Shown one piece after another: positions 1,453 to 16,162 of a DNA stretch of 33,708 nt. The position numbers and the translations under genes are program-made. The notes under the pieces are model-generated. The model was not told where the DNA came from, searched no databases, and saw only the letters and a program-made list of their open reading frames with translations. The DNA is from Paracoccaceae bacterium (GTDB lineage: Bacteria; Pseudomonadota; Alphaproteobacteria; Rhodobacterales; Rhodobacteraceae). Location of the stretch: positions 1-33,708 of the forward strand of contig JAAEZA010000046.1 of assembly GCA_018223125.1 (NCBI GenBank), in the 5' to 3' direction. How positions within the stretch are numbered: the first letter of the stretch is position 1; each line of letters begins with the position of its first letter.

Positions 1453-1482
1453 TTGACAGACTCAGGGGTTGGGTTGTTTATT
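1453..1482 (+). promoter_or_regulatory. Candidate sigma-70 promoter of the molybdenum-hydroxylase/Hnr operon
   Basis: A consensus -35 hexamer TTGACA lies at 1453-1458 and a weaker -10-like TTTATT at 1477-1482, with an 18-bp spacer. It sits 38 bp upstream of the first gene (1520) and the repeated TTAGTGTACA element overlaps its downstream edge. The -35 match is exact; the -10 is only 4 of 6, so the exact start site is uncertain. Confidence 0.5.
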
Positions 1483-1493
1483 AGTGTACAAAC
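1481..1493 (+). promoter_or_regulatory. Shared operator-like element, copy A
   Basis: TTAGTGTACAAAC lies just downstream of the candidate promoter and 26 bp before the first start codon. The first ten bases, with the palindromic core TGTACA, recur on the opposite strand at 16134-16143 in front of the ABC-importer operon. The position at the promoter is what a repressor such as the MarR protein at 8461 would use. The regulator-site link is inference. Confidence 0.5.
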
Positions 1494-1519
1494 GAATAAC
1501 CGCCGAGAGGTGCTGCCTT

Positions 1520-2341
1520 ATGTACTTCCAACCGAAGACTCTGGAACAGGCTGTGCAGGATGCGCAGACGCAAGGCTTGCGTATTCTGGCGGGGGGCACG
1601 GATTTTTACCCGATGAACGGCGATCGCCTTCCCGAAGGCCCTATACTGGACGTGACGCGGATTAAGGGGATGACCGGCGTCACCCGAACGTCGGACGGGT
1701 GGCGCATCGGCGGTGCGACCTGCTGGAGCGATATTCTGAAAGCGGACCTTCCGAAGGCGTTTGACGGTTTGAAAGCCGCGGCCAGAGAGGTCGGCTCGAT
1801 CCAGATACAGAATGTCGGAACAATCGCGGGGAACCTGTGTAATGCGTCTCCGGCGGCGGATAGTGTTCCTCCGCTGCTTACACTCGGTGCCAAAGTGGAA
1901 TTGACCTCTGCTTTTGGCAAGCGTCTGTTAAATCTGGAAGATTTTATTCTCGGCGTGCGAAAAACTGCCCTGCGATCCGGTGAAATACTGACTGCCGTTC
2001 ACATTGCCGATGCTGGGCAGGCGCGCAGTGTTTTCAGCAAGCTGGGCAGTCGTAAATATCTGGTCATTTCCATTGCGATGGTCGCTGTGCTCATTGAAAT
2101 TCAAGATGGTGCAATCGCCCGGGCGCGGGTGGCGGTGGGGGCGTGTTCTCCGGTGGCACAGCGCCTGCGGGACTTGGAAGCAGATTTAAGAGGACGCAGA
2201 CAGGTTGCAGGCGTGGTTACGCCAGCCCACCTCTCTGCGCTGTCCCCGATTGATGATGTGCGCGGGTCAGCAGACTACCGTCTGGAGGTCGTTGCGCCGA
2301 TGATAGAGGAAGCCCTCGAAAGATGTCTGGAGAGCACATGA
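1520..2341 (+). CDS. FAD-binding subunit of a xanthine-dehydrogenase-family molybdenum hydroxylase
   Basis: This 273-aa protein is the medium, flavin-carrying subunit (CoxM/NdhF type) that passes electrons from the Fe-S clusters of the partner subunit to an acceptor. It shows the family FAD signatures AGGTDFYP at residues 24-31 and QNVGTIAGNLCNASPAAD at about 97-114, and the usual SGEILTAVHI and later SKLGSRKYLVIS segments. The start at 1520 is chosen because GAGAGG (1505-1510) is 9 nt upstream and the protein then begins MYFQPKTLEQAV, the normal family N-terminus; an in-frame upstream codon at 1469 only adds unrelated residues. The gene overlaps the next one by ATGA, so the two subunits are probably translationally coupled. 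The cytoplasmic enzyme is expected to hydroxylate a heterocycle such as nicotinate. Confidence 0.9.
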   Translation: MYFQPKTLEQAVQDAQTQGLRILAGGTDFYPMNGDRLPEGPILDVTRIKGMTGVTRTSDGWRIGGATCWSDILKADLPKAFDGLKAAAREVGSIQIQNVGTIAGNLCNASPAADSVPPLLTLGAKVELTSAFGKRLLNLEDFILGVRKTALRSGEILTAVHIADAGQARSVFSKLGSRKYLVISIAMVAVLIEIQDGAIARARVAVGACSPVAQRLRDLEADLRGRRQVAGVVTPAHLSALSPIDDVRGSADYRLEVVAPMIEEALERCLEST

Positions 2342-5076
2342 AAGATGCTGCCCCCGAAGGGATCGCCTTTACCCTGAACAACAAACCTGTGCAGGCCGGT
2401 GCGGCGGCGGGGGAACGGCTGTCTGCAACCTTGCGCGAAACCCTTGGTGCGCGGGATGTGAAAATCGGGTGTAACGCAGGGGATTGCGGTGCCTGTACCG
2501 TTCTGGTGGACGGCGCGCCGGTGTGCGCCTGTCTGATGTCAACGGCGCAGGTGGAAGGGCGCCACGTGGAAACCCTGTCCGGTCTGGTGCAAAACGATAA
2601 GGACACTCGCGCACTGGCAGAGGCTTTTCAAAATCACGGCGCCGCCCAATGCGGCATTTGTACTCCGGGAATGATGGTCTCTGCGACGGCTTATTTGCGC
2701 AATAAAAACAGCAGTGTGGAAGACGCGCTCGGCGGTGTTTTGTGCCGCTGCACCGGCTATCGCAAGATCCTTGACGCCGTAGCAGAGACCGCAAACGGCG
2801 GGGCGGGGCCGCTGCCTGTATCCGGTGGTATGGGAACATCAATCCGGCGGCTTGACGGTGTGGCAAAAGTGGAAGGACGCGAGGCTTTCGGGGACGATGT
2901 AGCACCCGCCGCTACGCCGGTGGTAAAGGTGATCCGCTCTCCCTATCCTCGGGCGCGTTTCGAATTCGGTGATCTCGAAGGGTTCTGCACCCATACAGGG
3001 GGTGTGCTGGCCGTGCTCAGCGCGAAAGACATTAAAGGACGCAACTGTTTTGGCGTGATCCCGCCTTTTGCGGACCAGCCTGTGTTTGCCGTAGCTGAAA
3101 CCCGTTTTCGCGGTGAAGCCGTGGCCGCCGTGGTTGGCACGCCGGAGTTGATGGCGCGGTTCGATCCGGCAGATTTTCCCGTCACATGGCAGGAACTGCC
3201 CGCCGTGATGGATTGCGACACCGCAATGGCCGCGGATGCGCCGCAGATTCATTCAGGGCGCAGTGGCAATGTCATGACCGGCGGTTTCGTGCAGTGCGGC
3301 GATGCGGATCGTGCTTTAAACGGGGCAGCGCAGCGCGTGTCTGGCCGCTTCAGCACAGGGTTTGTGGAACATGCCTATATCGAACCGGAAGCAGGTTACG
3401 CCACAGTGACAGACGGGCGGGTGGAAATCCACGGCTGCACCCAAGCGCCGGTTATGGATCTGGATTCTATGGAGGAAATTCTTGGAATTGATCGTGACAG
3501 GATCAGGATTGTTCCCACGGCTGTGGGCGGCGGGTTCGGCTCCAAGCTGGATATTTCCATGCAGCCCTATCTTGCGCTGGCCGCGTTGAAAATCAACGGT
3601 CCGGTGCGTATGGCCTATTCCCGCGCGGAATCCATGCAATCTACCACGAAACGTCATCCAGCCGACATCGAACTCACTATCGGTGCGGATGAAACGGGGC
3701 GGGTGCAGGGGTTCCGCTTTGACGGTCTGTTCAATACGGGTGCTTATGCAAGCTGGGGGCCGACGGTTGCCAACCGCGTGCCGGTCCATGCCTCCGGTCC
3801 CTATCGCATTTCCGATTACCGCGCGGAGGCAAAGGGTATTCACACCCATTGCCCGCCATCGGGTGCCTTTCGCGGCTTTGGCGTGCCACAGGCGGCCATT
3901 GCGCAGGAGGTTCTGTTCGACGAACTCGCTGCCAAACTGGACATGGACCCGCTGGAATTCCGCGAGCTGAACGCGCTGGAAAACGGTGCGCCAACGGTCT
4001 GCGGGCAGGTGTTTAAACAGGGGGTCGGAATCAAGGCCTGTTTTAAAGCGCTGCGCGAACCTTGGGCCAAAGCCAAGGAAGAAGCGGCGGCGTTCAATGC
4101 AAAGGGCGGGCCCTTACGCCGCGGCGTCGGGATCGCGGCGGGCTGGTACGGTTGCGGGAATACCTCTCTGCCGAACCCTTCGACGATCAAATCTGGCGTG
4201 CGCAGCGACGGCACGATCGTGTTGCATCAGGGGGCGATGGACATCGGGCAGGGTGCAAATACCGTTATTTCCCAAATATTTGCCGAAGCGCTCGGCTGTG
4301 ATGTGAAACACTTGCACCTGATCGGTGCAGACACGGATGTAACACCGGATGCAGGTAAAACCAGTGCTTCTAGACAGACGTTCGTGTCCGGAAATGCGGC
4401 GCGCCTCTCCGGTCTGGCGCTTCGCGCGGAAATCCTGCGCCGGTGCAATGTGGACAGCGCAGCGGCGATAATTGAACCGGCTGAAGGGGCGCTGGTCGTT
4501 CGGGACGGGTCAGCGCGGCATGAAGTGTCCCTTGGCGGTCTGGGAAGCGACGCGGATGGCTACGTCCTGCGGGCCGAAGAAACCTATGATCCACCGACCA
4601 AACCGCTTGATAAAGACGGGCAGGGCGTGCCTTACGCGCAATTCGGCTATGCGGCCCATCTGGCAGTTGTGGATGTGGACATGCGCTATGGCACGGTGCG
4701 TCCGGTGCGGTTTGTCGCGGCCCATGATGTGGGCCACGCGGTGAACCCGATGCTGGTGGAAGGGCAGGTCCACGGCGGAATAGCGCAAGGGTTGGGCATG
4801 GCGCTAATGGAGGAGTTTATTCCCGGGCGCACCGAAAACCTGCACGACTATCTGATCCCGACAATCGGGGATATTCCGCCGATTGAGACCCTGATTATCG
4901 AAGAACCGGATGCCCACGGTCCATACGGGGCCAAGGGGCTGGGGGAGCATGTGTTAATCCCGACCGCACCTGCCTTGATCAACGCAATTAATCGCGCGGC
5001 AGGGGTGCAATTACGGCAGGTTCCGGTTACGCCCTCCCGTCTGAAAGCCGCAATGAAGGAGGCGTGTCATGACTGA
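2338..5076 (+). CDS. Fused [2Fe-2S]/molybdopterin subunit of a molybdenum hydroxylase (putative nicotinate dehydrogenase)
   Basis: This 912-aa catalytic subunit has an N-terminal Fe-S part fused to the molybdopterin part. The plant-type cluster uses C45, C50, C53 and C65. The second cluster uses C105, C108, C136 and C138 (CGIC ... CRC), matching the spacing in Desulfovibrio aldehyde oxidoreductase (MOP). The molybdenum domain has VGGGFGSK, GAFRGFGVPQ, GQVHGGIAQG and PYGAKGLGE, whose Glu fits the family base. MOP has the same Fe-S/Mo fusion but no flavin; here a separate FAD subunit is encoded just upstream. The start at 2338 is preferred over 2323: GGAG lies 5 nt upstream and ATGA overlaps the preceding stop. 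Because the next genes resemble 6-hydroxynicotinate reductase and enamidase, nicotinate C6-hydroxylation is the likely job; the substrate remains inference. Confidence 0.88.
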   Translation: MKDAAPEGIAFTLNNKPVQAGAAAGERLSATLRETLGARDVKIGCNAGDCGACTVLVDGAPVCACLMSTAQVEGRHVETLSGLVQNDKDTRALAEAFQNHGAAQCGICTPGMMVSATAYLRNKNSSVEDALGGVLCRCTGYRKILDAVAETANGGAGPLPVSGGMGTSIRRLDGVAKVEGREAFGDDVAPAATPVVKVIRSPYPRARFEFGDLEGFCTHTGGVLAVLSAKDIKGRNCFGVIPPFADQPVFAVAETRFRGEAVAAVVGTPELMARFDPADFPVTWQELPAVMDCDTAMAADAPQIHSGRSGNVMTGGFVQCGDADRALNGAAQRVSGRFSTGFVEHAYIEPEAGYATVTDGRVEIHGCTQAPVMDLDSMEEILGIDRDRIRIVPTAVGGGFGSKLDISMQPYLALAALKINGPVRMAYSRAESMQSTTKRHPADIELTIGADETGRVQGFRFDGLFNTGAYASWGPTVANRVPVHASGPYRISDYRAEAKGIHTHCPPSGAFRGFGVPQAAIAQEVLFDELAAKLDMDPLEFRELNALENGAPTVCGQVFKQGVGIKACFKALREPWAKAKEEAAAFNAKGGPLRRGVGIAAGWYGCGNTSLPNPSTIKSGVRSDGTIVLHQGAMDIGQGANTVISQIFAEALGCDVKHLHLIGADTDVTPDAGKTSASRQTFVSGNAARLSGLALRAEILRRCNVDSAAAIIEPAEGALVVRDGSARHEVSLGGLGSDADGYVLRAEETYDPPTKPLDKDGQGVPYAQFGYAAHLAVVDVDMRYGTVRPVRFVAAHDVGHAVNPMLVEGQVHGGIAQGLGMALMEEFIPGRTENLHDYLIPTIGDIPPIETLIIEEPDAHGPYGAKGLGEHVLIPTAPALINAINRAAGVQLRQVPVTPSRLKAAMKEACHD

Positions 5077-6490
5077 ACGGGCTGCTGTTGAGAAGATCCG
5101 CTGTGATGCCTGTCCGGTGTTGTGCTATATTGCCGAAGGCCGTTCCGGTGCCTGTGACCGTTATGCAAATCATGACGGCGAACTGGTGCGGCTGGACCCT
5201 CTGACGGTGATCGAAAATGGTGGTCCTGCTGTGCCCTTCCTGCAAGGGGCCGAATGGGACGGAGACATTGTGCAAGGCGCGCGCCCCTTCGTGACGGCCA
5301 TTGGTGCGGGCACCACTTATCCTGATTACAAGCCTGCGCCGTTTATCGTCTCGGCGGAAACGCGGGGCGTGGATATGGTGACGGTCGTGACCGAGGGCAT
5401 CTTCAGCTATTGCGGTGTAAAGGTTAAAATCGACACGGACCGCCATATCGGAGAGGAACGTGCCATCGTACGCGTCGACGGAGAAGCCATCGGCCATGTG
5501 ATGACCAGCGAATATGGCAGCAAGATGTTGTCCCTTGGCGGGGTCGATCACCTGACGGGCGGATCGAAAAAGGAAGGCCGTGTCACTTGCGATGCTTTGT
5601 TGGCTTTGTGCAACTGTGAGCCGGTCGAGATGGAAATCGACGGTGGATCTGTCGTGATTGTGCAGGCTGGAAAGGCGCCGGTCATCAACGGCGATCAGGA
5701 AAGACTGATGCGGGTGGGCTGTGGTTCCGCCGCAATCGGCATGTTTGCCGCCCAGTGGAAGGGGCATGCGGACGAGGTGATTGTGGTGGACGATCATATT
5801 ACCGGAGTGCTGTCCGAACATCAGGCCGGCGTTCTGCTGGACATCCCCCCGAGCGGTATCCGCGTGGTCGGTCGCCGCTCTACTCCGGGGCGGTATTTTC
5901 AGGTGGCCGAACCGGGGACGGGGTGGGGTGGCACCGATATTTCCGATCCCTTGAAGGTGATCAAAAACGTAAATCCCAAAGTGGCATGGCCCGGATTGCG
6001 GTTGTTCATGATCTCGACGACTGGCGAACAATGGGCCTATTTCGAGCTGGACGAGGATCTTGTGCCCCAACCTGCGGAAGCACCCGCCGCGCTGCGGGCC
6101 AGTGCAGAACGGGTGGCCGAGAATTGCGAACCTTCAGTCTGTTCGGTGCTGTTCATGGGCGGCGCAGGGGGATCCCTGCGGGCGGGAGTGACTGAAAATC
6201 CGGTAAAGCTGACCCGATCCGTGCGCGATACACTGACGCAAGTGACGATTGGCGGGGCAGAAGCCTATCTCTGGCCCGGCGGCGGGATTACCGTGATGGC
6301 AGATGTAACGCAGATGCCTTCCAATGCCTTCGGATATGTGCCGACACCGGCATTGGTCGCGCCGATCGAATTTACCATGCGCCGCAGCGATTATATCGCC
6401 TTGGGTGGCTATGAGGCGGAAATCCGCAAGGTTGACGATGTGCTCAACGGCAACGAGCGCCGTATCGGTGGCGCAGAGGCGGCAGAATGA
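5069..6490 (+). CDS. hnr: 6-hydroxynicotinate reductase-like iron-sulfur flavoprotein
   Basis: This 473-aa protein resembles 6-hydroxynicotinate reductase, which in Eubacterium barkeri reduces 6-hydroxynicotinate to 1,4,5,6-tetrahydro-6-oxonicotinate and carries Fe-S clusters and a covalent flavin. Visible here is an N-terminal cysteine cluster C12-x2-C15-x3-C19-x9-C29, suited to a [4Fe-4S] centre, and further cysteines (C115, C174, C181, C183, then GCGSA and ENCEPSVC) that could hold a second cluster. Glycine-rich stretches (AIGAGTT at 77-83, FMGGAGGS) are candidates for flavin contact. Its start overlaps the molybdenum-subunit stop by 8 bp and has AAGGAGG at 5056-5062. It is followed with ATGA overlap by the ApbE-superfamily gene. 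The identification rests on remembered family appearance plus the enamidase in the facing operon. Confidence 0.75.
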   Translation: MTERAAVEKIRCDACPVLCYIAEGRSGACDRYANHDGELVRLDPLTVIENGGPAVPFLQGAEWDGDIVQGARPFVTAIGAGTTYPDYKPAPFIVSAETRGVDMVTVVTEGIFSYCGVKVKIDTDRHIGEERAIVRVDGEAIGHVMTSEYGSKMLSLGGVDHLTGGSKKEGRVTCDALLALCNCEPVEMEIDGGSVVIVQAGKAPVINGDQERLMRVGCGSAAIGMFAAQWKGHADEVIVVDDHITGVLSEHQAGVLLDIPPSGIRVVGRRSTPGRYFQVAEPGTGWGGTDISDPLKVIKNVNPKVAWPGLRLFMISTTGEQWAYFELDEDLVPQPAEAPAALRASAERVAENCEPSVCSVLFMGGAGGSLRAGVTENPVKLTRSVRDTLTQVTIGGAEAYLWPGGGITVMADVTQMPSNAFGYVPTPALVAPIEFTMRRSDYIALGGYEAEIRKVDDVLNGNERRIGGAEAAE

Positions 6491-7302
6491 TCGCAGCGCG
6501 GATTTCAGCAGACCGGTTGCATTTGCAACACGGGCCGATCGACCTGATCATCGGCGCGGATGGCAACCGTGAAGCCGCTTTCGCCGCTGCCGGGGCCCGT
6601 TTTGCCACGGTCCTTGAAGAACTTGTTTTGGAACTCCCCCTGTTGCGCAGGCCGATGCCGGTGGCGCCGCGCGGGCATGTGGCACAACGTATGGCGCAGG
6701 CCGCAGCAGGGTATCGGGATTTTGTCACGCCCATGGCTGCGGTGGCGGGGGCTGTTGCTGATGAAGTTCTTGCCGCGATCCGCACGCAAGCACGTCCCGA
6801 ACGGGCATATGTAAACAACGGCGGTGACATCGCGGTGTTTCTGGCCAAGGGGCATAGGTTTGACGTGGGTATTACCGGTCTGGATGCAACGGCGCTGGGC
6901 ACGGTGACACTGCACAGCGGTGACGGAATTGGCGGAATTGCCACCAGCGGGCAGGGCGGGCGCAGCCTGTCGCTGGGCATCGCGCAAAGCGTGACGGTTC
7001 TGGCAGACTGCGCGGCGGTCGCGGATGCTGCCGCGACTCTGATTGCCAACAGGGTTGATTTGCCGGACCATCCCGCTATCACGCGGGAGAGCGCAGACCG
7101 TCTGGACCCTGACAGCGATCTGGGCGACCGGATGGTTGTGACGGGATGCGGCTCCTTGGGGGTAAGGGATAAAAGGCGCGCCTTGGAATATGGCGCGCAC
7201 TTTGCGCAGGAATTGCAGGCGCAGGGACGGATAAAAGCGGCTTACCTGCTGTTGCAGGGGGAAAGCCGTGTGATCGGCAGAGAGGAACTGGCACATGCCT
7301 GA
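6487..7302 (+). CDS. UPF0280 family protein, ApbE superfamily (possible flavin transferase)
   Basis: This 271-aa protein belongs to UPF0280 (COG2122), a family of unknown function related to ApbE, the FMN transferase that links flavin to threonine. ApbE-like landmarks are visible: TPMAAVAGAVADEVL at 81-95, VNNGGDI at 109-115, GIATSG at 150-155 and ADCAAVADAAATLI at 173-186. These correspond to the GGD/N, ATSG and A-DA-aTa motifs of ApbE. No signal peptide is present, so it should be cytoplasmic, unlike most ApbE proteins. The gene overlaps the hnr-like stop by ATGA. Since E. barkeri 6-hydroxynicotinate reductase has covalent flavin, a role in flavinylating the neighbouring protein is an attractive inference. 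A catalytically different ApbE relative is the main alternative. Confidence 0.85.
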   Translation: MIAARISADRLHLQHGPIDLIIGADGNREAAFAAAGARFATVLEELVLELPLLRRPMPVAPRGHVAQRMAQAAAGYRDFVTPMAAVAGAVADEVLAAIRTQARPERAYVNNGGDIAVFLAKGHRFDVGITGLDATALGTVTLHSGDGIGGIATSGQGGRSLSLGIAQSVTVLADCAAVADAAATLIANRVDLPDHPAITRESADRLDPDSDLGDRMVVTGCGSLGVRDKRRALEYGAHFAQELQAQGRIKAAYLLLQGESRVIGREELAHA

Positions 7303-7879
7303 CGTAGTGGTTCGCAAGATTATGACAACGATGGAGGAGATCCATCACGAATTCGGCCCCGAACCGGAGGTGCCCCTGCGCCGTGTCGCGGCTGTAGCGG
7401 TGATCAAAAACCCGTTTGCGGGCAAATACGTTGCTGATATTGCAGGATTTATGGAGGATCTGAAGCCCTTGGGGCTGGAGATGGCGCAAAAGGCGCTGGC
7501 GCTTTTGGGTGGGGATGCTTCGGCTGTAGAGGGCTATGGAAAGGGCTCTATCGTGGGGACCGCCGGAGAGTTGGAACACGGCGCGCTCTGGCATGCGCCG
7601 GGGGGCTATGCCATGCGCGAACTGCTCGGGGATGCGGCGGCGATTGTGCCTTCGACGAAAAAGGTCGGCGCTGCGGGAACGCGGCTTGATGTGCCGATCA
7701 CCCATATCAACGCTTCCTACGTGCGCAGCCATTTTGACGCGATGGAAATCGGTATGAATGACGCGCCCCGCGCTGATGAACTGGCCTTTATACTGGTGAT
7801 GAGCACGGGTGCGCGCATTCATGCGCGGGTTGGTGGTCTGGCCGCAGACGAGATTAAAGGGAAGGACGGGTTGAGATGA
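7295..7879 (+). CDS. DUF1185 (amino acid synthesis family) protein, first paralogue
   Basis: This 194-aa protein is a DUF1185/AA_synth family member. The family name suggests amino-acid synthesis, but no reaction is established to my knowledge. Conserved pieces are VAVIKNPFAGKY near residue 35, YGKGSIVG and GELEHG in the middle, STKKVG, YVRSHFDAMEIGMNDAPRADE and the C-terminal GKDGLR. It overlaps the UPF0280 stop by 8 bp and has GAGAGG a few bases upstream. The next gene is a same-length paralogue overlapping by ATGA. The tight coupling and conserved surfaces suggest that the two proteins form one heteromeric complex acting in the heterocycle pathway, possibly on a ring-opened or ring-reduced intermediate. 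That role is inference only. Confidence 0.85.
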   Translation: MPDVVVRKIMTTMEEIHHEFGPEPEVPLRRVAAVAVIKNPFAGKYVADIAGFMEDLKPLGLEMAQKALALLGGDASAVEGYGKGSIVGTAGELEHGALWHAPGGYAMRELLGDAAAIVPSTKKVGAAGTRLDVPITHINASYVRSHFDAMEIGMNDAPRADELAFILVMSTGARIHARVGGLAADEIKGKDGLR

Positions 7880-8460
7880 GCGCGAAAATCAGGAAAACCG
7901 CTGTTTGGGTGGAAGAAACCCATCTGGAAATGGGCCGCGAGATTTCGCCCCCGACCCGCAAGGCTGTCGCCGTGGCCGTGATCGAAAATCCCTTCGCAGG
8001 CCAGTATACCGAAGACCTTACGCCGCTGATGGACATCGGCGCGGAACTGGGCGGAATGCTCGGGGAGCGCTGCGTTCAGGCGCTGGGGATCACACCGGAG
8101 CAGGCGGAAAGCTATGGCAAATCCGCGATGGTGGGCGAAAACGGTGAACTGGAACACGCCGCTGCGATCCTGCATCCCAAACTGGGTGCACCGCTGCGCA
8201 AAGCAGTTGAGAAAGGGGCAGCCCTGGTGCCTTCGTCGAAAAAAATGGGGGGGCCGGGGCAGGATCTTGACGTGCCGCTGGGCCATAAGGACGCGGCTTA
8301 CGTGCGCAGCCATTTCGACGGGGTCGAGGTGCGGATGAGTGATGCGCCCCGCGCCAATGAAATCCTTGTGGCTGTGGCGGTGACGGACAGCGGACGCCCG
8401 TTGCCCCGTGTTGGCGGGCTGACCCACGAACAGGCCGAAGGCAAGGACGGGTTGCGCTGA
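7876..8460 (+). CDS. DUF1185 (amino acid synthesis family) protein, second paralogue
   Basis: This second 194-aa DUF1185 protein is clearly homologous to the one encoded just upstream. Both share VAVI-NPFAG, YGK, VG--GELEH, VPS-KK-G, LDVP--H, YVRSHFD, M-DAPRA-E and end in GKDGLR. They differ at their N-termini and in the central helical region, so this is an old duplication rather than a recent copy. It starts in an ATGA overlap with the preceding stop and its own stop TGA abuts the ATG of the MarR gene. No signal peptide or membrane segment is visible. Function is unknown; retention of two divergent copies in one transcript argues for different subunits or substrates. Confidence 0.85.
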   Translation: MSAKIRKTAVWVEETHLEMGREISPPTRKAVAVAVIENPFAGQYTEDLTPLMDIGAELGGMLGERCVQALGITPEQAESYGKSAMVGENGELEHAAAILHPKLGAPLRKAVEKGAALVPSSKKMGGPGQDLDVPLGHKDAAYVRSHFDGVEVRMSDAPRANEILVAVAVTDSGRPLPRVGGLTHEQAEGKDGLR

Positions 8461-8905: not shown

Positions 8906-8930
8906 TATGCCCGCTAGTCGGGAGGACGTC

Positions 8931-9875
8931 ATGACACCGGGTCGTGCATATCTGAGTACAGAAGAAATCCGCAGCTTTAACGGCCGTTCCGATCTTTGGG
9001 GCGCGTGGCTGGTGCTGCATTGCTGGGGCGTTATTGCACTGGCGCTGGCGCTGTTTACGCTCTGGCCCAATGTGCTGACCTTTGTGCTGGCGGTGATGCT
9101 TATCGGCTCGCGCCAGTTGGGGCTGGCGATCCTGATGCATGAAGCGGCCCATGTGGCCCTGTTCAGGACGCGGAAATATAACGAATTTGCGGGGGAGTGG
9201 CTGTGCGGACGGCCAATCCTTGCGGATATGTTCGAATACCGCCGCTATCATCTGAAGCACCACCAGCACACCCAGACCGAAAAAGATCCGGACCTGAAGC
9301 TGTCCCGTGCCTTTCCAACCACCAGAGCCAGCCTGCGGCGCAAGTTGTTACGCGATATCACGGGGCAGACCGGATTTCGCCAGCGCAGCCAGCAGATCAT
9401 GATGGCTTTCAAACTGGCAGGCGAAGCAGAGGGCATGTCCCGTCAGGATCTCGCACAGGCGTTTTCGGGGCCGGTGCTGGGCCGTGCGGTGATCGCCAAT
9501 GGGGTGATTTTTGCGGTGATGTGGGTGGTTGGCGCGTGGTGGTGGTGGTTTGCCTTCTGGGCGCTGCCGTTGCTGACGTGGTTTCAACTGGTGCTGCGGG
9601 TGCGCAATATTGCCGAACATGGCGTGGTGGAGTTTTCAGACGATCCCCTGCGCAATGTGCGCACCACCAGGGCGGGGCCGCTGATGCGGCTGTTTCTGGC
9701 GCCCTACTGGGTGAATTACCATCTGGAGCATCATCTGATCATGCATGTCCCCTGTCGCCACCTGCCGCGGCTGCACCGGCTGATGCTGGACAAGGGCTAT
9801 GGCGATAAAATGCGGATCGGACGGAATTACTGGGATGTGCTGAAGCTGGCCGCGTCCCGTCCGGCAGGGGGATAG
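8931..9875 (+). CDS. Membrane fatty acid desaturase family protein
   Basis: This 314-aa integral membrane di-iron protein has the three histidine boxes of the family: HEAAH at 70-74, HLKHH at 107-111 and HLEHH at 264-268, separated by hydrophobic segments at about 28-65 and 185-222. Members desaturate acyl chains, but relatives hydroxylate alkanes, carotenoids or other small molecules. The start at 8931 is set by GGAGG at 8921-8925; an in-frame upstream codon at 8868 would give an unlikely cysteine-rich leader. The gene follows the MarR gene by 59 bp on the same strand and is the last gene before the convergence point. Whether it belongs to the heterocycle pathway, for example as an oxygenase, or only adjusts membrane lipids cannot be told here. 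Confidence 0.87.
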   Translation: MTPGRAYLSTEEIRSFNGRSDLWGAWLVLHCWGVIALALALFTLWPNVLTFVLAVMLIGSRQLGLAILMHEAAHVALFRTRKYNEFAGEWLCGRPILADMFEYRRYHLKHHQHTQTEKDPDLKLSRAFPTTRASLRRKLLRDITGQTGFRQRSQQIMMAFKLAGEAEGMSRQDLAQAFSGPVLGRAVIANGVIFAVMWVVGAWWWWFAFWALPLLTWFQLVLRVRNIAEHGVVEFSDDPLRNVRTTRAGPLMRLFLAPYWVNYHLEHHLIMHVPCRHLPRLHRLMLDKGYGDKMRIGRNYWDVLKLAASRPAGG

Positions 9876-9925
9876 GCTGGCAGGTTGCTGGCTGGCGCGA
9901 TTTCTTAACAGAGGGTTAATTATGA

Positions 9926-10013
9926 CCCTGCAAATATGAAGCGTCTTACAAGACGCGTCATAAATGAAGCGTCATAAATGAAGCTTCATACAAGACGCTT
10001 CATTATTGCAGGG
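9926..10013. repeat. Long imperfect inverted repeat with internal palindromes between convergent operons
   Basis: The outer arms are 22 nt each and match at 20 of 22 positions; they begin CCCTGCAA and end TTGCAGGG and contain ATGAAGCGTCTT. Between them lie a GCGTCTT-AC-AAGACGC hairpin, a tandem duplication of CGTCATAAATGAAG and the perfect palindrome ATGAAGCTTCAT. The whole is built from variants of ATGAAGC(G/T)TC. It separates the desaturase stop from the stop of the facing enamidase gene, so it may be a two-way terminator/RNA barrier or a small repeat element. No T-tract is present at either end. Confidence 0.75.
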
Positions 10014-10018
10014 TGATC

Positions 10019-10058: not shown

Positions 10059-11222
10059 TTAGCTTACAACTTCTGGCAACCTGTTCGCGGGCGGCGTGTT
10101 GCGGGACCGTCCCGAAGTCACCTTTCCGTCAATGATCGTCATCCCGACACCGGGCAGATTGCCCAGTTCGATGCTTTCCAGAATATGCTTGCCCGGTGCG
10201 TGTTGCGCCTGATCCATCAGCACGAAATCCGCAGCCTTGCCCACTTCGATCAGGCCGGTGTCCAGCTCCCGCCGCCGCCCCGTGTTGCCATTGGCAAAAC
10301 AGAAGGCGGTTTCGGCCTTCACATTCCCGAGCGAGGACAGCATTGCCACCATCCGCATGATACCAAGGGGCTGCACGCCGGAACCTGCGGGACCGTCCGT
10401 GCCAAGGATCACCTGATCCAGCTTGCCCAACTCCCGCGCGGTGTTCAGCGTCAGCAGCGCCGCCCGTTCATTGCCGTTATGTACGATCTCCAGTGCGGCG
10501 GTGCAGTTTTCACACAGGCAAACGATCTGATCGTCAGGCAGGGCAGAATGGCCGCCGTTGATATGGCCGACAACATCCGTGCCGGTTTCCAGCACCATAT
10601 CGGCATCGATCAGACCGGAACCCGGAATGGACGGCCCGCCGGTGTGGATCGTGGACTGTATCCCGTATTTGCGCGCCCAACTCACCATCTGCTGCGCGGT
10701 CTTGCCATCCTTCACCGTGCCAAGCCCCACTTCGCCCAGCAGTTTGACACCCGCACTGGCCAGTTCCTTGAAGTCCTCTTCCACCATACCGTGTTCGATC
10801 ACCGGCGCACCGGCGTGGACCTTCATGCCTGACGGGCGGAAATTTTCGTACCAGCGCTGGGCGGCGATCGCCATGGCCTTCAGCCCGATCACATCTTTGG
10901 GACGCCCCGGCATATGCACTTCGCCCGCCGAAATCAGCGTGGTCACACCGCCGTGCAGGGTGCTGTCGATCCAGTGCAACTGCTGCTGGCGCGGTGTGTA
11001 ATCCCCGACGACGGGGTGGATATGGCTGTCAATCAAACCGGGGGCGAGCGTGACACCATTGGCATCCACCATCGTATCGGCCTGATCTATGTCCATGTCC
11101 GCACCGCGGCCGATTTCGCTGATCTTGCCGTCAATGGCGATGATGCAATCCGCGTCCAGAATCGGCTCTTCAATCCGGCCGGAGAGCATTAATCCGATGT
11201 TCTTGATCACTGTCTTTTCCAT
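10059..11222 (-). CDS. ena: Enamidase-like amidohydrolase
   Basis: This 387-aa amidohydrolase closely resembles E. barkeri enamidase, a bimetal (Fe-Zn) enzyme that hydrolyses 1,4,5,6-tetrahydro-6-oxonicotinate to 2-formylglutarate and ammonia. Metal-site residues are visible at expected positions: H67 and H69 (DSHIHP), E164 (GEVGLGTV), H193 (HTGG), H220 (HINGG) and D276 (GTDGPAG). Further enamidase-like pieces are GDYTPRQ, LHGGVTTLISAG, PGRPKD and the C-terminal SRNTPPA. The start is supported by GAGGAGAGA upstream. It lies only 12 bp after the last ABC gene, so import and ring opening share a transcript. A dihydroorotase or other cyclic amidase is the alternative, but the hnr-like gene in the facing operon supports enamidase. 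Confidence 0.85.
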   Translation of the reverse strand: MEKTVIKNIGLMLSGRIEEPILDADCIIAIDGKISEIGRGADMDIDQADTMVDANGVTLAPGLIDSHIHPVVGDYTPRQQQLHWIDSTLHGGVTTLISAGEVHMPGRPKDVIGLKAMAIAAQRWYENFRPSGMKVHAGAPVIEHGMVEEDFKELASAGVKLLGEVGLGTVKDGKTAQQMVSWARKYGIQSTIHTGGPSIPGSGLIDADMVLETGTDVVGHINGGHSALPDDQIVCLCENCTAALEIVHNGNERAALLTLNTARELGKLDQVILGTDGPAGSGVQPLGIMRMVAMLSSLGNVKAETAFCFANGNTGRRRELDTGLIEVGKAADFVLMDQAQHAPGKHILESIELGNLPGVGMTIIDGKVTSGRSRNTPPANRLPEVVS

Positions 11223-11234: not shown

Positions 11235-11930
11235 CTATACGCCTAGGTAATGGTGCAGTTTTTCGGGGTTTTCGCGCAGCGCACCCGTGTCTGTCGTCTC
11301 CAGCGAACGGCCGTTTTCGACAAATACCACCTGATCGGCAATGTTCAGAACCGCATCAATGCGCTGTTCCACCAGAACCACCGCCAGATTGCGGGATTTC
11401 ATTTGTAAAACCACGTCGCGGATCAGGTCGATCATAGAAGGTTGCAGCCCTTCGGTCGGTTCGTCCAGCAGCAGGACTTTGGGGCGCAAACACAGCGCGC
11501 GGCCCATGGCCAGCATCTGCTGTTCGCCGCCCGAAAGCGTATCGGCCTGTTGCTTCAACCGCTCGCGCAGGCGGGGGAACAGGTCCAGAACTTCTTCGCG
11601 GGTGGCGGCTTTGTCCTTGGTGTGGAGCAACCCCACCTCCAGATTTTGCGCCACGGTCAGTTCGGAAAACAGCCGCCGCCCTTGGGGAACATAGGCAATA
11701 CCGGATTTTGGCACGTCATGGGGCGGCAGGTCGGACAGGTTGACACCGTCCAGCGCCACCGAACCGCCCGAAAGCGGCAACATGCCCATGATCGCCTTTA
11801 ACGTGGTGGTTTTTCCCGCGCCATTGCGGCCCATGATGCAGGTGATCTCGCCCTCCTTGGCGGTCAGGGAAACATCAAACAGCACCTGCACACGGCCATA
11901 GCCCGACTGGATATGTGAAAGCTCAAGCAT
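11235..11930 (-). CDS. Branched-chain amino-acid-type ABC importer ATPase (LivF type)
   Basis: This 231-aa cytoplasmic ATPase drives the importer encoded upstream. It shows Walker A GRNGAGKTT, the LivF-typical YVPQGRRLFSELTV, the signature LSGGEQQM and Walker B VLLLDEPTEG. The start is placed at 11930 (MLELSHIQSGYG), with GGAG about 5 nt upstream and an 8-bp overlap with the preceding ATPase stop. An upstream in-frame extension to 11993 would run far into that gene and is unlikely. Liv-type importers also carry urea, amides and aromatic acids; placement in front of the enamidase suggests nicotinate or a related ring acid as cargo. Confidence 0.93.
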   Translation of the reverse strand: MLELSHIQSGYGRVQVLFDVSLTAKEGEITCIMGRNGAGKTTTLKAIMGMLPLSGGSVALDGVNLSDLPPHDVPKSGIAYVPQGRRLFSELTVAQNLEVGLLHTKDKAATREEVLDLFPRLRERLKQQADTLSGGEQQMLAMGRALCLRPKVLLLDEPTEGLQPSMIDLIRDVVLQMKSRNLAVVLVEQRIDAVLNIADQVVFVENGRSLETTDTGALRENPEKLHHYLGV

Positions 11931-12639
11931 GTCCGCTCCCCAGATAGGCTTCTTGTACGGCGGCATTGGCACGGATTTCCTGCGGGGTGCCATTGGCCAG
12001 AACCATGCCCTGATCCAGCACGGTGATATATTCCGCCACCTCCATCACCACATTCATATTGTGTTCGATCAACAGGATCGTGGTTTCCGCATCCAGCGTT
12101 TTGATCAGCGTGTTAAACTCTTCCACCTCGGATTCCGCCAGCCCCTGGGTGGGTTCATCGAGAATAAACAGGCGCGGTTCCTGCGCCAGCCCCATGCCGA
12201 TCTCCAGAATGCGCTGGTGACCGTAGGACAGATCGCCGGCCATCTGGTCCGCACGCTCGCTGATGTTCAGACGGCTGAGAACTTCATCCGTTTTGTCCTG
12301 CACTGCCGCCTTGTTCCGGCCCAGCCTGCGCCGTGCGGCCAGTGCAACATTCTCGCGCACCGGAAGCCCCGGAAACACCGAGGTGATCTGGAAGGTATAG
12401 GCCATGCCCCGCTCGATCCGCTTGTGGGCGGGAAGGGCTGTTACGTCTTGCCCGTCAAACGTCACAGTCCCACGGGTGGCCGGAATGCGCCCGCAGATCA
12501 TGCCGACGAAGGTGGATTTCCCCGCCCCGTTCGGCCCGATAATGGCGCGGGTCTGGCCCGCCGGCAGATCGAAATCCACATCCGTATTGGCCTTCACACC
12601 GGCGTAGGCTTTGGTCAGTCCGCGTGTTGTCAGGATCAT
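11923..12639 (-). CDS. Branched-chain amino-acid-type ABC importer ATPase (LivG type)
   Basis: This 238-aa ATPase is the LivG partner. Motifs are Walker A GPNGAGKST, the LivG-like GMAYTFQITSVFPGLPVRENV, the signature LSYGHQR and Walker B LFILDEPTQG. The start at 12639 forms an ATGA overlap with the permease stop and has GAGG 8 nt upstream; a GTG nine bases earlier is possible. The signature has Tyr in place of the common Gly (LSYGHQ), which is regular in this LivG subgroup. It works with the LivF-type ATPase to energise the two permeases. Confidence 0.93.
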   Translation of the reverse strand: MILTTRGLTKAYAGVKANTDVDFDLPAGQTRAIIGPNGAGKSTFVGMICGRIPATRGTVTFDGQDVTALPAHKRIERGMAYTFQITSVFPGLPVRENVALAARRRLGRNKAAVQDKTDEVLSRLNISERADQMAGDLSYGHQRILEIGMGLAQEPRLFILDEPTQGLAESEVEEFNTLIKTLDAETTILLIEHNMNVVMEVAEYITVLDQGMVLANGTPQEIRANAAVQEAYLGSGHA

Positions 12640-13580
12640 GGCAGCCACCTCAGGAATCGGGTTCGGATCGTGCCCGCAATGCCGTGGGGCAGAAATAGTG
12701 TGACCAGCACCAGCGTCACACCAACCACCAGCAGATAGGCTTCGGTTTTGCCAGAGGCATAGTCGATCAGATAGAACATAAACAAAGCGCCGACAAAGGG
12801 GCCGACGGTTGTGCCCGCCCCGCCGACCAACACCCAGAGCAGCGGGAAGATCGAATATTGCACGGTGGCAAAGGTCGCCCCCGCATAGCCGAACAACAGC
12901 GCATAAGTGGCCCCCGAGGCGCCTGAAACCACGCCCGACAGGATCACCGCCTTCAGCTTGATCGCGGTGACGTTATAGCCGAGCATCCGCGCCCGCTCCT
13001 CGTTTTCGCGAATGGCCACCAGTGTCCGCCCGAAAGGCGCGCGGATGATATAGGCCAGACCCAGCAGGGTGACAGAGAACAGCACCAGCGCACAAAGGTA
13101 CCGCACGCCCGGATCGCTCAGGTCATACCCCGCGATCTGGCGGCTCGCCTGTTGCAGGGCGAAGCCTTCGTCGCCACGGGTGTATTTGCCAAAGTAAAGG
13201 ATCGTCAGATAGCCCGCCTGCGCAAACATCAGCGTGACGATCATAAAGGCTACCCCCGTGGTGCGCAGGATCAGAAACCCGATCACGGCAGAAACCACAA
13301 GGGCGGCGATCAGACCGGCAGCAAAGGCAGGCAGCGGCGTCCAGTCCGCCAGATGCATCATCAGCCCGAGCCCGTAGAGACCGGCAGAAAAGAACAGCGC
13401 ATGGCCAAGGGACAAAAGCCCCGTATAGCCGAACAGCAGGTTATACCCCATCGCATAAATTGCGATGACCATAACACTGGCCAGATTGCCGGAGTGATAG
13501 GCGGGCAGCACAAAATAGGCCAGCGCAAGCAGGCCGATCAGCCCGAAGTGAAGCCCGTGGGATTTATGTGTATCGCTCAT
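12636..13580 (-). CDS. Branched-chain amino-acid-type ABC permease (LivM type)
   Basis: This 314-aa polytopic inner-membrane permease has the LivM core YNLLFGYTGLLSLGHALFFSAG near residues 47-68 and the coupling-helix region IRENEERARMLGYNV at about 187-201. About eight to nine hydrophobic segments are visible. The start ATG at 13580 overlaps the stop of the LivH-type gene by ATGA, and its stop overlaps the LivG-type start, so all four transport genes are coupled. The length is usual for the family. Confidence 0.93.
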   Translation of the reverse strand: MSDTHKSHGLHFGLIGLLALAYFVLPAYHSGNLASVMVIAIYAMGYNLLFGYTGLLSLGHALFFSAGLYGLGLMMHLADWTPLPAFAAGLIAALVVSAVIGFLILRTTGVAFMIVTLMFAQAGYLTILYFGKYTRGDEGFALQQASRQIAGYDLSDPGVRYLCALVLFSVTLLGLAYIIRAPFGRTLVAIRENEERARMLGYNVTAIKLKAVILSGVVSGASGATYALLFGYAGATFATVQYSIFPLLWVLVGGAGTTVGPFVGALFMFYLIDYASGKTEAYLLVVGVTLVLVTLFLPHGIAGTIRTRFLRWLP

Positions 13581-14503
13581 GATGTGGACTTCCCGAGCAG
13601 GCCTTTGGGACGGAACACCAGCACCATTGCCACCACCAGCGTAGCGAAAATCTTGGCCAGTGTCGGCGTGAAGAAGACAGAGATGATCCCGTCTGCCATG
13701 CCGATCAGAATGGCCGCGATAATGGTGCCGGGCAGGGAACCGAGCCCGCCGATAATCACGACGATAAAGGACAACAGCAGTGGATCATGTCCCATCAGGT
13801 AATAGGCCTGCTGGATCGGCACCACCAGCACCGCACCGATAGCGGCCAGTCCCGCACCCAGCCCGAAGACGACCGAATAGACGGTTTTGACAGGAATACC
13901 AAAGGCTTGGGCCATATCGCTGTCCTGTTGCGTGGCGCGCATCACCAGCCCTGCCTTGGTGCGGGTAATGGCCAGCCAGAGGGTGATCAGGATCACGACG
14001 GCGGCTGCAATCACAAACAGTTTGTAAGATGTGGTCGACAGCCCCCAGGGGAAGTAGAATTCAAACCCGTTCTCGCCCCATTCGAACCACGGCAGGGCAA
14101 TGCGCGAATTGAACGGGGGTTCGACAGGGCGGGCATCCGGTCCGAACGTCATTAGCGTGGTTTGTTGCAGGATGTAAAGCGTGCCGATGGTGGCAACGAT
14201 CGTGCGTTCGGGATCATAGTTGATGTGGCGCAGGATCAGCCTGTCCACGCCGGCGGCCAGAAACCCCACCAGCAGGGGCGCAATCAGCAGCGCCGCAACA
14301 AAGCCCAGTGCCGGATGCGCGCCAACACTTGTGGCGATGAACCATGCGAGCACGGCACCAATCATGTAAAATTCGCCGTGGGCGACGTTCACCACCCGCA
14401 TCACGCCGAATACGATGCTCAGCCCCATGGCTGTCAGCGCCAGCACGGCGGCGGTGGTTGCGCCTTCAAGCGAGGCCAGCAGAAGGTGGGGACCAAATTC
14501 CAT
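13577..14503 (-). CDS. Branched-chain amino-acid-type ABC permease (LivH type)
   Basis: This 308-aa inner-membrane permease pairs with the LivM-type protein. It shows the LivH landmarks MGLSIVFGVMRVVNVAHGEFYMIGA near residues 26-50, MRATQQDSDMAQAFGI as cytoplasmic coupling loop at about 180-195, and VIIGGLGSLPGTIIAAILIG near 234-253. AGGGGGA lies 8-9 nt upstream of ATG 14503. It is separated from the binding-protein gene by a 293-bp gap with two hairpins, which probably lowers its expression relative to the binding protein. Confidence 0.93.
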   Translation of the reverse strand: MEFGPHLLLASLEGATTAAVLALTAMGLSIVFGVMRVVNVAHGEFYMIGAVLAWFIATSVGAHPALGFVAALLIAPLLVGFLAAGVDRLILRHINYDPERTIVATIGTLYILQQTTLMTFGPDARPVEPPFNSRIALPWFEWGENGFEFYFPWGLSTTSYKLFVIAAAVVILITLWLAITRTKAGLVMRATQQDSDMAQAFGIPVKTVYSVVFGLGAGLAAIGAVLVVPIQQAYYLMGHDPLLLSFIVVIIGGLGSLPGTIIAAILIGMADGIISVFFTPTLAKIFATLVVAMVLVFRPKGLLGKSTS

Positions 14504-14741: not shown

Positions 14742-14769
14742 GCCACCCTGCATGAAAATGCAGGGTGGC
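14742..14769 (-). terminator. Perfect 12-bp hairpin with GAAA/TTTC loop after the binding-protein gene (attenuator)
   Basis: GCCACCCTGCAT and ATGCAGGGTGGC form a perfect 12-bp stem around a four-base loop, 28 bp downstream of the binding-protein stop on the minus strand. No T-run follows in the direction of transcription, so it more likely protects the binding-protein mRNA 3' end or gives partial termination. This is the usual way ABC operons make more binding protein than permease. The rest of the 14504-14796 gap shows no gene. Confidence 0.65.
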
Positions 14770-14796: not shown

Positions 14797-16080
14797 TCAG
14801 AAGCTTTGTGCGGTGTAATCCACTTCGTCCTCGTAAAGCGTATCTTCGATGGAAGATGTATGCGCGAGAACCAGTTTTCCGCTGTCCACTTTGGAAATAT
14901 ACTGGTGGCCGAAGGTCTGGTGCGTTTTCCCGTTAAAACGTTTCGCACCCTGCGGATGATCGTCCGACAGTGGCATGTCCGACATCTCCTCGATCGCTTC
15001 GATCAGTTTGGAGCGGTCTGCAATACCTTTGTAATCGGCGGCTTCCATCCCGCGTTTGACGATGTTGAGCGTTTCCCAGCAGCCGAACATATGCGAATAG
15101 GTCGAAACGTCTTTGGCATCCGAAACCGATGCACCGTTTTCATCAACGCCTACAGCCTCGCGGTACATTTTGTCATGGCTGGACTGGTCCGCCTGCGCAT
15201 GGCGGGGGTTGCCCTCCCAGAAATAGGTGCCTTCGAGGAATTCCAGACCCGGAGAGTTGATGTCCACCGCTTCCAGACTGTCGAGGAAGCCGAAGATTTC
15301 CGGTTTGGACGGGCCAAAGAATTCACCCATTTCCTTTACAAAGGTCAGAACAGCAGGGCCGATCATGACGTGGTAGATCACTTCGGTATCCCGCGGGATT
15401 TTCGGGAAATACTTGGTGAAAGAGGTCTCGCTTGGCGGGATGGCGATCTTGGCAACAACCTCACCGCCCTGTTTTTCAATGGCTTCAGAGAAGTAATCGC
15501 GGTGATCGTGACCGAAAGCAAAATCCGGATAGATCATGGTAACTTTCTTGCCCAGATTATCCGCCACAAACGGCGCCATCGCCTGAACCTGTGATTTCAC
15601 ATCAGTGATACCGGGCTGCATGGTCCAGCGGTTCAACGCGCCGGAAGCAACATGATGGCCTTCGGAAACCACGAAATACGGCAGTTTCAATTCGCCCGCA
15701 CGGGGGGCAGAACCGTAAACCACGTGGGAAAACAGTGTCCCGAACCCGATGTCGCAATTGTGCTGGGTTGCGAATTTCTCAACCACTTCGGCGCCGCGCT
15801 TCGGATCGGTGCCGTCGTCTTCCGCAACAATCTCTACAGGGCGGCCGTTGATCCCGCCCATATCGTTGATCCGCTTCACGGCGGCGGTGGTGGTACGGTC
15901 ATACCAGCGTCCGTAAGATGCGCCGATGCCGGTGCGGTGCACCTGAAACCCGATGCGAATAGGCTCTGAACTTTGTGCCTGGGCATAGCGGCCCAGCAGC
16001 GGGGTGGCGGCCGCAGCGGCTGCTGTTCCAAGCAGGGTGCGGCGTGTCAACGTAGGGGTAGGCTTAATCAATTTACTCAT
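14797..16080 (-). CDS. ABC importer substrate-binding protein (type 1, Liv/amide family), Tat-exported
   Basis: This 427-aa periplasmic binding protein belongs to the Leu/Ile/Val-amide receptor group. A twin-arginine signal is visible (TRRTLLG at 12-18, then an alanine-rich core and a YAQAQ cleavage region near 36), so it may be exported folded. The mature part starts PIRIGFQVHRTGIGASYG, followed by RINDMGGINGRPVEIVAEDDGTDPKRG and later TMIYPDFAFGHDHRDYF. GGAGG lies 5 nt upstream of the ATG. It is the first gene of the minus-strand operon and has the TTAGTGTACA element in its leader. The ligand is predicted from context to be nicotinate or a related heterocyclic acid. Confidence 0.9.
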   Translation of the reverse strand: MSKLIKPTPTLTRRTLLGTAAAAAATPLLGRYAQAQSSEPIRIGFQVHRTGIGASYGRWYDRTTTAAVKRINDMGGINGRPVEIVAEDDGTDPKRGAEVVEKFATQHNCDIGFGTLFSHVVYGSAPRAGELKLPYFVVSEGHHVASGALNRWTMQPGITDVKSQVQAMAPFVADNLGKKVTMIYPDFAFGHDHRDYFSEAIEKQGGEVVAKIAIPPSETSFTKYFPKIPRDTEVIYHVMIGPAVLTFVKEMGEFFGPSKPEIFGFLDSLEAVDINSPGLEFLEGTYFWEGNPRHAQADQSSHDKMYREAVGVDENGASVSDAKDVSTYSHMFGCWETLNIVKRGMEAADYKGIADRSKLIEAIEEMSDMPLSDDHPQGAKRFNGKTHQTFGHQYISKVDSGKLVLAHTSSIEDTLYEDEVDYTAQSF

Positions 16081-16130
16081 TGGAACCTCCGAGTCGTCTG
16101 TTGGTGGGTTAGTCTTTTTTCTTCAAGTCT

Positions 16131-16143
16131 GTATGTACACTAA
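16131..16143 (-). promoter_or_regulatory. Shared operator-like element, copy B
   Basis: On the minus strand this reads TTAGTGTACATAC, matching copy A (TTAGTGTACAAAC, 1481-1493) at 12 of 13 positions and in orientation relative to the downstream operon. It lies 50 bp upstream of the binding-protein start. Weak extra matches flank it (TTnT before, A after). A TAGACA hexamer occurs just upstream, but no convincing -10 is seen. Confidence 0.5.
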
Positions 16144-16162
16144 CAATTTGTCTACATCTTTT

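Follow-up and report, generated by a model that had tools for sequence, protein, structure and literature searches.

Genomic linkage of the Hnr reductase family with an ApbE-fold protein in a predicted reductive nicotinate locus of a Paracoccaceae bacterium

How would an alphaproteobacterium open the ring of nicotinate by reduction, and what could be contributed by the conserved proteins of unsettled role that are encoded among its enzymes? This question is raised by a 33,708-nucleotide stretch of DNA from a Paracoccaceae bacterium (GenBank assembly GCA_018223125.1, contig JAAEZA010000046.1; here called the window), which belongs to a genome of 3.9 Mb in 98 contigs with 99% completeness and which carries two convergent operons with genes for a molybdenum hydroxylase, for the 6-hydroxynicotinate reductase family protein Hnr, for an enamidase and for an importer. 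Judging from gene content, conserved context, co-occurrence, the predicted fold of the UPF0280 protein encoded next to Hnr, the residues of the regulator and a shared motif, we consider it probable that, taken as a whole, these operons would import nicotinate and open its ring reductively under BpsR-like control, with UPF0280 maturing Hnr and with the AA_synth proteins acting on the ring-opening product. The pathway itself is ordinary, and it is the genomic link between Hnr and UPF0280 that is the noteworthy part.

Gene content and conserved context of the locus

The features of the two operons are the following (aa, amino acids; numbers after a family or a Protein Data Bank (PDB) entry are expect values, E).

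1446-1499, plus strand: promoter/operator region of the plus-strand operon, with TTGACA at 1453-1458, an operator-like site at 1478-1493 (TTATTAGTGTACAAAC) and a weaker copy at 1446-1461
1520-2341, plus strand: flavin adenine dinucleotide (FAD) subunit of the molybdenum hydroxylase, 273 aa (PF00941 2e-38, PF03450 2.3e-12, profile run from TTG 1469)
2323-5076, plus strand: molybdenum hydroxylase, one 917-aa chain that joins [2Fe-2S] and molybdopterin domains (PF02738, PF20256, PF01799, PF00111)
5069-6490, plus strand: Hnr, 6-hydroxynicotinate reductase family, 473 aa (annotation of relatives, cysteine motif)
6487-7302, plus strand: UPF0280/COG2122 protein, predicted ApbE fold, 271 aa (NF003322, Foldseek)
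7295-7879, plus strand: AA_synth copy 1, PF06684 or DUF1185 (PF06684 4.1e-71; PDB 3byq 8.1e-57)
7876-8460, plus strand: AA_synth copy 2 (PF06684 3.2e-74)
8461-8871, plus strand: MarR-family regulator, BpsR relative (PDB 2nnn 5.3e-37, 6pcp 5.6e-24)
10059-11222, minus strand: enamidase, 387 aa (PDB 2vun 1.3e-107)
11235-11993, minus strand: Liv-type ATPase LivF (PF00005 4.5e-33)
11923-12648, minus strand: Liv-type ATPase LivG (PF00005 5.4e-32, PF12399)
12636-13580, minus strand: Liv-type permease LivM (PF02653 1.1e-41)
13577-14503, minus strand: Liv-type permease LivH (PF02653 1.4e-35)
14797-16080, minus strand: periplasmic binding protein, LivJ type (PF13458 7.8e-47)
16131-16146, minus strand: operator-like site of the minus-strand operon (TTGTTAGTGTACATAC)

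The plus-strand genes, from the FAD subunit to the MarR regulator, stand in the order given with ends that overlap or abut, and the minus-strand operon joins the enamidase-like hydrolase to the five genes of the Liv-type importer, with a membrane protein gene upstream. A sequence-only reading of this DNA had named the hydroxylase subunits, an Hnr-like protein and a MarR regulator in one operon, and a Liv importer with an enamidase-like hydrolase in the other, all of which was confirmed. It had placed the start of the system at 1453, which is the TTGACA hexamer of the promoter region and not a gene start; the gene itself begins at ATG 1520, with AGAGG ahead as ribosome site, although the list of open reading frames (ORFs) starts it at TTG 1469. 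The UPF0280 gene and the two AA_synth genes, which lie inside the operon, were not named in that reading.

The co-located hydroxylase, Hnr, enamidase and ATP-binding cassette transporter genes are the gene set of the reductive nicotinate pathway of the Azorhizobium/SG-6C type. In the proposed route the Liv-type importer would take up nicotinate, the molybdenum hydroxylase would convert it to 6-hydroxynicotinate, Hnr would reduce this to 1,4,5,6-tetrahydro-6-oxonicotinate (THON), and the enamidase would turn THON into ammonia and 2-formylglutarate, which may be decarboxylated and oxidised to glutarate and enter metabolism via a glutaryl-coenzyme A (CoA) dehydrogenase encoded elsewhere in the genome. 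The enzymes of the nicotinate fermentation pathway of Eubacterium barkeri were reportedly described in a 2006 study and the nicotinate pathway of Azorhizobium in one of 1992. The nicotinate-type assignment and the order of hydroxylation, ring reduction and ring opening, both already put forward in the earlier reading, are supported by homology, conserved context and the BpsR-like regulator, and the reductive route that it inferred for this organism, taken to be an aerobe, is plausible. Such a route in an aerobe is not new, since passages of PMC3511419 report the reduction of 6-hydroxynicotinate to THON, known from E. barkeri, also for the aerobic Azorhizobium caulinodans, and describe such clusters (Fig. 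4 there) in A. caulinodans, Bradyrhizobium USDA110, Rhodopseudomonas HaA2 and strain SG-6C, including genes for a presumed nicotinate transporter and for two conserved proteins without a known role. These clusters have the reduction via THON in common with our reading of the window, a likeness drawn from text and figure legend, and the window cluster adds a further alphaproteobacterium to the published occurrences of the route.

Compared with the solved E. barkeri enzyme (PDB 2vun), the enamidase shows 46% identity over 386 columns, its next-best solved match being only 2.5e-06, and the proposed reactions would follow the same order as in the E. barkeri fermentation. The 917-aa hydroxylase chain is nearest to the solved aldehyde oxidoreductase 1dgj (1.4e-106), also matches chains A, B and D of the E. 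barkeri nicotinate dehydrogenase (3hrd), scores under the cut-off of every NCBIfam model and is a probable nicotinate 6-hydroxylase. In the E. barkeri enzyme the molybdopterin domain is split over two chains, large and medium, with a separate small iron-sulfur chain, whereas in the window iron-sulfur and molybdopterin domains form one chain. A further difference is that the window ORFs scanned include no recognisable genes for the later fermentative reactions, and 2-formylglutarate could be processed otherwise than in the E. barkeri fermentation.

Hnr itself has no Pfam family at E<=0.001 and no PDB relative by profile at E<=10, and its relatives are labelled hnr or 6-hydroxynicotinate reductase in 17 of the 26 plasmid records that have one (64-76% identity). 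An N-terminal C-x2-C-x3-C-x9-C motif is present in all 47 aligned sequences, across which nine of the 11 cysteines are invariant, and according to passages of PMC3511419 the SG-6C Hnr protein is 42% identical to that of E. barkeri. Genes annotated nicA and nicB lie 4-8 kb from Hnr in two of the five plasmid regions examined (Neorhizobium NCHU2750 and strain La 6), and a ferredoxin-NADP reductase lies within 8 kb in four of the five and within the stretch examined in 21 of 95 Hnr loci; the source genome has one on contig C25, 63% identical to one near Hnr in locus L016. An AlphaFold2 model of Hnr from the 47 sequences (predicted local distance difference test score, pLDDT, 67.5; predicted template modelling score 0.61; no PDB match at E<=0.001) is weak because all homologues that went into it share 69% identity or more with the first sequence, and no fold is concluded from it. 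Hnr was also considered as a relative of DUF39/COG1900 and this was rejected, given the absence of a Pfam match, of a PDB relative by profile (E<=10) and of any match to PF01837 in the genome (E<=10); a very distant link may still exist, as the rejection rests on profiles, without direct comparison to DUF39 sequences. In one single-contig genome Hnr reads as two overlapping pieces (G028:C1:2969823-2971198), either a damaged copy or a sequencing error.

A scan of 84,980 species genomes for Hnr gave at least 588 confirmed places, the best 80 of which were retained and make up, with the window's own, 81 loci in which gene presence was judged by tblastn (E<=1e-8) within the locus stretch examined. 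The molybdopterin chain and UPF0280 were each found in 78 of them, followed by AA_synth (69 loci), the FAD subunit (67), MarR (56) and enamidase (40), and since this gene set recurs across the 81 loci, the arrangement is not due to chance. Of 385 genomes sampled from the class, 68 have Hnr, as do 17 of 209 genomes sampled from the phylum, 16 of those 17 belonging to the same class and five genomes being common to both samples. The cluster occurs on plasmids in 26 records, Sulfitobacter pontiacus being one species with a plasmid-borne Hnr. Its distribution is patchy, since in the phylum sample Hnr was found in none of one same-genus and eight same-family genomes.

Co-occurrence and predicted fold of UPF0280

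The UPF0280 protein (NF003322, 330.7 bits against a cut-off of 290) has a match at E<=1e-5 in exactly the 68 class-sample genomes that carry Hnr, the other 317 having none, and at E<=1e-3 in exactly the 17 phylum-sample genomes with Hnr. By contrast, nine of these 68 Hnr genomes lack AA_synth (E<=1e-10) and 38 lack an enamidase orthologue (at least 66% identity). With a threshold of E<=1e-20, 83 of 95 loci have the gene immediately downstream of Hnr and in the same orientation, and with E<=1e-3 the number is 88. It was missed at the stricter threshold in eight loci, six with room for it and two without; at 1e-3 five of the eight have it directly downstream (L025, L063, L066, L093, L101) and three (L035, L048, L068) do not within the stretch examined. 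Loci L052, L059 and L060 carry it 6-11 kb upstream of the Hnr gene.

The predicted model of UPF0280 has a pLDDT of 94.4, and its Foldseek matches in the PDB are DVU1097 at ranks 1-2 and then, from E 2.3e-5, exclusively ApbE, FmnB or Ftp at ranks 3-41, other proteins appearing only from E 0.42. On the strength of the shared match DVU1097, we take UPF0280 and COG2122 to be one family. Like the ApbE, FmnB and Ftp flavin transferases in predicted fold, it also shares with them GGD and ADxx[AS]T (each in 45 of 46 aligned UPF0280 sequences), and differs from them by its low identity and by the lack of DPxTG; the ApbE profile PF02424 scores 18.6 bits, under its cut-off of 25.6. Our best guess is that UPF0280 is a maturase of Hnr, perhaps for a covalent flavin. 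Since the Hnr of E. barkeri is said, after the 2006 study, to carry a covalent flavin, a dedicated maturation protein with an ApbE fold would be the simplest reading, and supplying that flavin would be its simplest task.

Several points weigh against such a role. The fold matches to ApbE have template modelling scores of 0.36-0.54 at 10-18% identity; DPxTG, a motif that matters in ApbE, is found in 0 of 46 UPF0280 sequences, and [ST]G[AS]T, the usual acceptor motif of ApbE flavinylation, in 0 of 47 Hnr proteins. The covalent flavin is one reported for the Hnr of E. barkeri, and the identity of the window's Hnr comes from the annotation of its relatives. That no PF02424 ApbE was found in the source genome at E<=1, which favours the role, comes from a search that is not very sensitive because it also missed UPF0280 itself. 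Hnr and UPF0280 are adjacent and hence co-inherited, the UPF0280 searches started from one query (E<=1e-5 and 1e-3), so that distant relatives may be missed, and loci L035 and L068 have no UPF0280 within the stretch examined. According to passages of PMC5764234, moreover, the homology between COG2122 and ApbE seems not to extend to the flavin region, and a persulfide role is cited there.

The main rival to the maturase reading takes up this last point: UPF0280 could be a sulfur-handling or persulfide factor for the iron-sulfur or cysteine chemistry of Hnr and no flavin enzyme, which we consider somewhat unlikely. It would agree with the 11 cysteines of Hnr, nine of them invariant, with the missing DPxTG and with Desulfovibrio, where according to passages of PMC5764234 homocysteine synthesis needs COG2122 along with DUF39 and NIL/ferredoxin proteins, the mechanism being unsettled and a persulfide role having been proposed. 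COG2122 is needed there with an unusual enzyme system, as it would be here, but its partner is DUF39 in that system and Hnr in ours, the DUF39 family has, as noted above, no match in the source genome, and the fold of UPF0280 is nearest to ApbE. The position directly downstream of Hnr in most loci would equally suit a structural or catalytic subunit of Hnr, or a mere passenger of the operon, a pair of alternatives that we regard as unlikely. A passenger would be expected to disappear no less often than the genes beside it, yet from the 68 Hnr genomes nine AA_synth and 38 enamidase orthologues are gone against none of UPF0280, which is also retained in the three loci where it lies kilobases upstream.

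Ring opening and the AA_synth proteins

An enamidase is not always encoded near Hnr; downstream of Hnr, UPF0280 and AA_synth, rhizobial loci carry genes for hydantoinase A and B (HyuA and HyuB). Among the 57 loci of the Hnr scan that extend 8 kb or further to either side, which were found without regard to the ring-opener, 36 have only enamidase near Hnr, 10 only HyuA, 0 both and 11 neither (Fisher p 8.2e-6, kinship not corrected), the ten HyuA-only loci stemming from few groups (Rhizobium-like, Reyranella-like) and the counts being local only, as enamidase lies far from Hnr in some genomes (e.g. G197). This replaces a first count (70 loci, p 2.9e-8), 13 loci of which came from genomes chosen for lacking enamidase. 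HyuA is present in 11 of 15 Hnr loci taken from genomes without an enamidase orthologue. Beside Hnr, enamidase and HyuA, which are unrelated, behave as if they alternated as ring-openers. An ATP-dependent lactam hydrolase would be a reasonable stand-in because THON is a cyclic amide, and HyuAB may open the THON ring in place of enamidase; in the literature searched, no paper joining hydantoinase or UPF0280 with nicotinate breakdown was found among the matches listed. As a double proposal that we regard as possible and put forward tentatively, UPF0280/COG2122 would be a divergent flavin transferase, or an installer of some other cofactor, dedicated to Hnr, and the metal-dependent enamidase and the ATP-dependent lactamase HyuAB would be interchangeable ring-openers.

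The two AA_synth copies (PF06684, 238.5 and 248.6 bits against a cut-off of 27) are proposed to act on the formyl-dicarboxylate product, with copy 2 beside the enamidase step, possibly in the decarboxylation or tautomerisation of 2-formylglutarate. The copy-2 type is found in 40 of 40 enamidase-bearing Hnr loci versus 4 of 23 HyuA loci, which suggests that it accompanies enamidase rather than replacing it, and this counts against the idea that the AA_synth proteins themselves open the ring instead of enamidase. We consider that idea highly improbable: although the operon has two copies and the fold is chorismate-mutase-like with function unknown (passages of PMC2954203), 9 of 68 Hnr genomes have no AA_synth at E<=1e-10, and enamidase paralogues of 38-44% identity have an AA_synth gene within 120 bp in 7 of 8 cases, including three from genomes that lack Hnr (G060, G202, G306), against 0 of 7 for those of 36-37% identity. 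A third AA_synth gene of the source genome (L082 8387-13739, G000:C20) is clustered with a LysR regulator, an alpha/beta hydrolase, a flavin reductase, a luciferase-like monooxygenase and an aldehyde dehydrogenase, a cluster that looks like the trigonelline (Tgn) gene set. In Acinetobacter, according to passages of PMC7913881, TgnF, a homologue of the AA_synth-type protein, stimulates the TgnE-dependent oxidation of succinic semialdehyde, and attempts to see a TgnF-like effect with HcdD, the protein of that study, failed.

For the later steps, the source genome has two glutaryl-CoA dehydrogenases, 79-80% identical to one near Hnr in Kaistia, which would fit the glutarate route stated in passages of PMC3511419. 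What speaks against their use here is that they adjoin pipecolate-oxidase-like and glutamine-synthetase-like genes and not nicotinate genes, which looks like pipecolate or amine catabolism. The stretches around them (L139, L140) gave no CoA-transferase match, no genome-wide search having been made. One locus, from Kaistia (L076), has within about 8 kb not only Hnr and UPF0280 but also genes for a ferredoxin-NADP reductase, a glutaryl-CoA dehydrogenase and a protein like succinate-glutarate CoA-transferase (580 bits, under a cut-off of 750), the last two within about 6 kb of Hnr; to the detriment of the comparison, the whole stretch examined of that locus is without molybdenum hydroxylase, enamidase, AA_synth or HyuA.

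Regulator, substrate and neighbouring features

The MarR regulator would repress both operons at a common operator and be released on binding 6-hydroxynicotinate. Its best solved match is 2nnn, with BpsR (6pcp) second. We take 6pco and 6pcp to be BpsR structures. Their chain residues 15, 23, 26, 32 and 100-102 agree with the numbering in passages of PMC6837509, where the crystal structure of BpsR with 6-hydroxynicotinate has contacts from Tyr15, His23, Arg26 and His32. Tyr3, Arg14 and His20 of the window protein match Tyr15, Arg26 and His32, which are kept in 59, 60 and 48, respectively, of 61 related MarR ORFs of Hnr loci, and since only three of the four ligand residues are present, the regulator would function at most like BpsR. 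To its disadvantage as a BpsR counterpart, BpsR His23 corresponds to Tyr11 in the window and is His in only 5 of the 61, and the closest structure is 2nnn (ligand unnamed), which has Tyr at BpsR His32. NicR of Pseudomonas putida is also without the residues for 6-hydroxynicotinate according to PMC6837509, so that the pocket is no universal test. With BpsR of Bordetella the window protein shares the MarR family and the Tyr, Arg and His of the pocket, whereas BpsR represses nicC and nicE (same passages) and the window gene sits in a reductive operon.

The pattern TTRTTAGTGTACAWAC occurs at 1478-1493 ahead of the plus-strand operon and at 16131-16146 (minus strand) ahead of the minus-strand operon. 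The 16-mer was built from these two sites and its result in the window (three matches, equalled in 0 of 100 shuffles) is thus not independent. Within three mismatches on either strand it precedes the FAD-subunit gene in 14 of 79 loci against 0.15 expected, the enamidase gene in 9 of 40 against 0.05 and the LivJ gene in 2 of 11 against 0.0, expectations coming from letter shuffles of each upstream region and the counts in other loci being independent of the window apart from relatedness. A perfect palindrome (TTAGTGTACACTAA), tried as operator, occurred within three mismatches in 0 of 79 FAD-subunit upstream regions and was replaced by the asymmetric 16-mer.

The same architecture could also serve a relative of nicotinate, such as trigonelline, once demethylated, or another hydroxypyridine carboxylate, with nicotinate as a mere intermediate, which we judge distinctly unlikely. 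It would suit the Tgn-like cluster with the third AA_synth and the Rieske oxygenase with a VanA-type C-terminus that 15 of 95 Hnr loci contain in the stretch examined (e.g. L010 14098-15165), 12 together with enamidase, but no Rieske oxygenase was seen among the window ORFs scanned (not all were), three of the four BpsR residues for 6-hydroxynicotinate are kept in the window, and genes annotated nicA or nicB lie near Hnr in other genomes. VanA-type Rieske oxygenases often demethylate, and those of the Hnr loci are possibly N-demethylases that feed nicotinate into the route.

Two further genes flank the operons.

8868-9875, plus strand: fatty-acid-desaturase-like membrane protein, 335 aa (PF00487 2e-37)
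16163-17527, minus strand: membrane protein (relatives in 11 of 81 Hnr loci by tblastn)

The desaturase-like ORF overlaps the stop codon of the MarR gene and is the last of the plus-strand operon; its nearest NCBIfam model is an arginine hydroxylase (GntB), far under the cut-off. It is probably not part of the nicotinate system, because a relative was found in 0 of 81 Hnr loci (E<=1e-8). The membrane protein, for which a Pfam search gave no match, is a possible accessory of nicotinate uptake. Between the convergent operons, 9922-10017 holds direct repeats with 14-nt (nucleotide) spacing and inverted repeats whose arms are as long as 46 nt and 78% complementary, perhaps a two-way terminator, and between the binding-protein and permease genes a perfect 12-nt inverted repeat with a 4-nt loop (14742-14769) is perhaps a processing or attenuation hairpin. 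Further along, 20512-27398 is a probable integrated element of 6.9 kb, with an integrase (20591-21862), a primase/TraI-like gene and further genes without assignment, which leaves out the nicotinate genes; it is bounded by a 16-nt exact repeat (20512-20527 and 27383-27398), the second copy of which is one end of a tRNA-Leu(taa) gene (27383-27468).

The value of the locus lies in the strict genomic link between the ring-reducing Hnr and an ApbE-fold protein of unsettled biochemical role, and in two unrelated, putative ring-opening enzymes that seem to alternate beside the same reductase. If HyuAB opens the ring, an ATP-dependent lactamase would be a ring-opener not described for this pathway in the literature found, and if UPF0280 is an installer, this would explain the covalent flavin of Hnr and would hint at the role of COG2122 in homocysteine synthesis.

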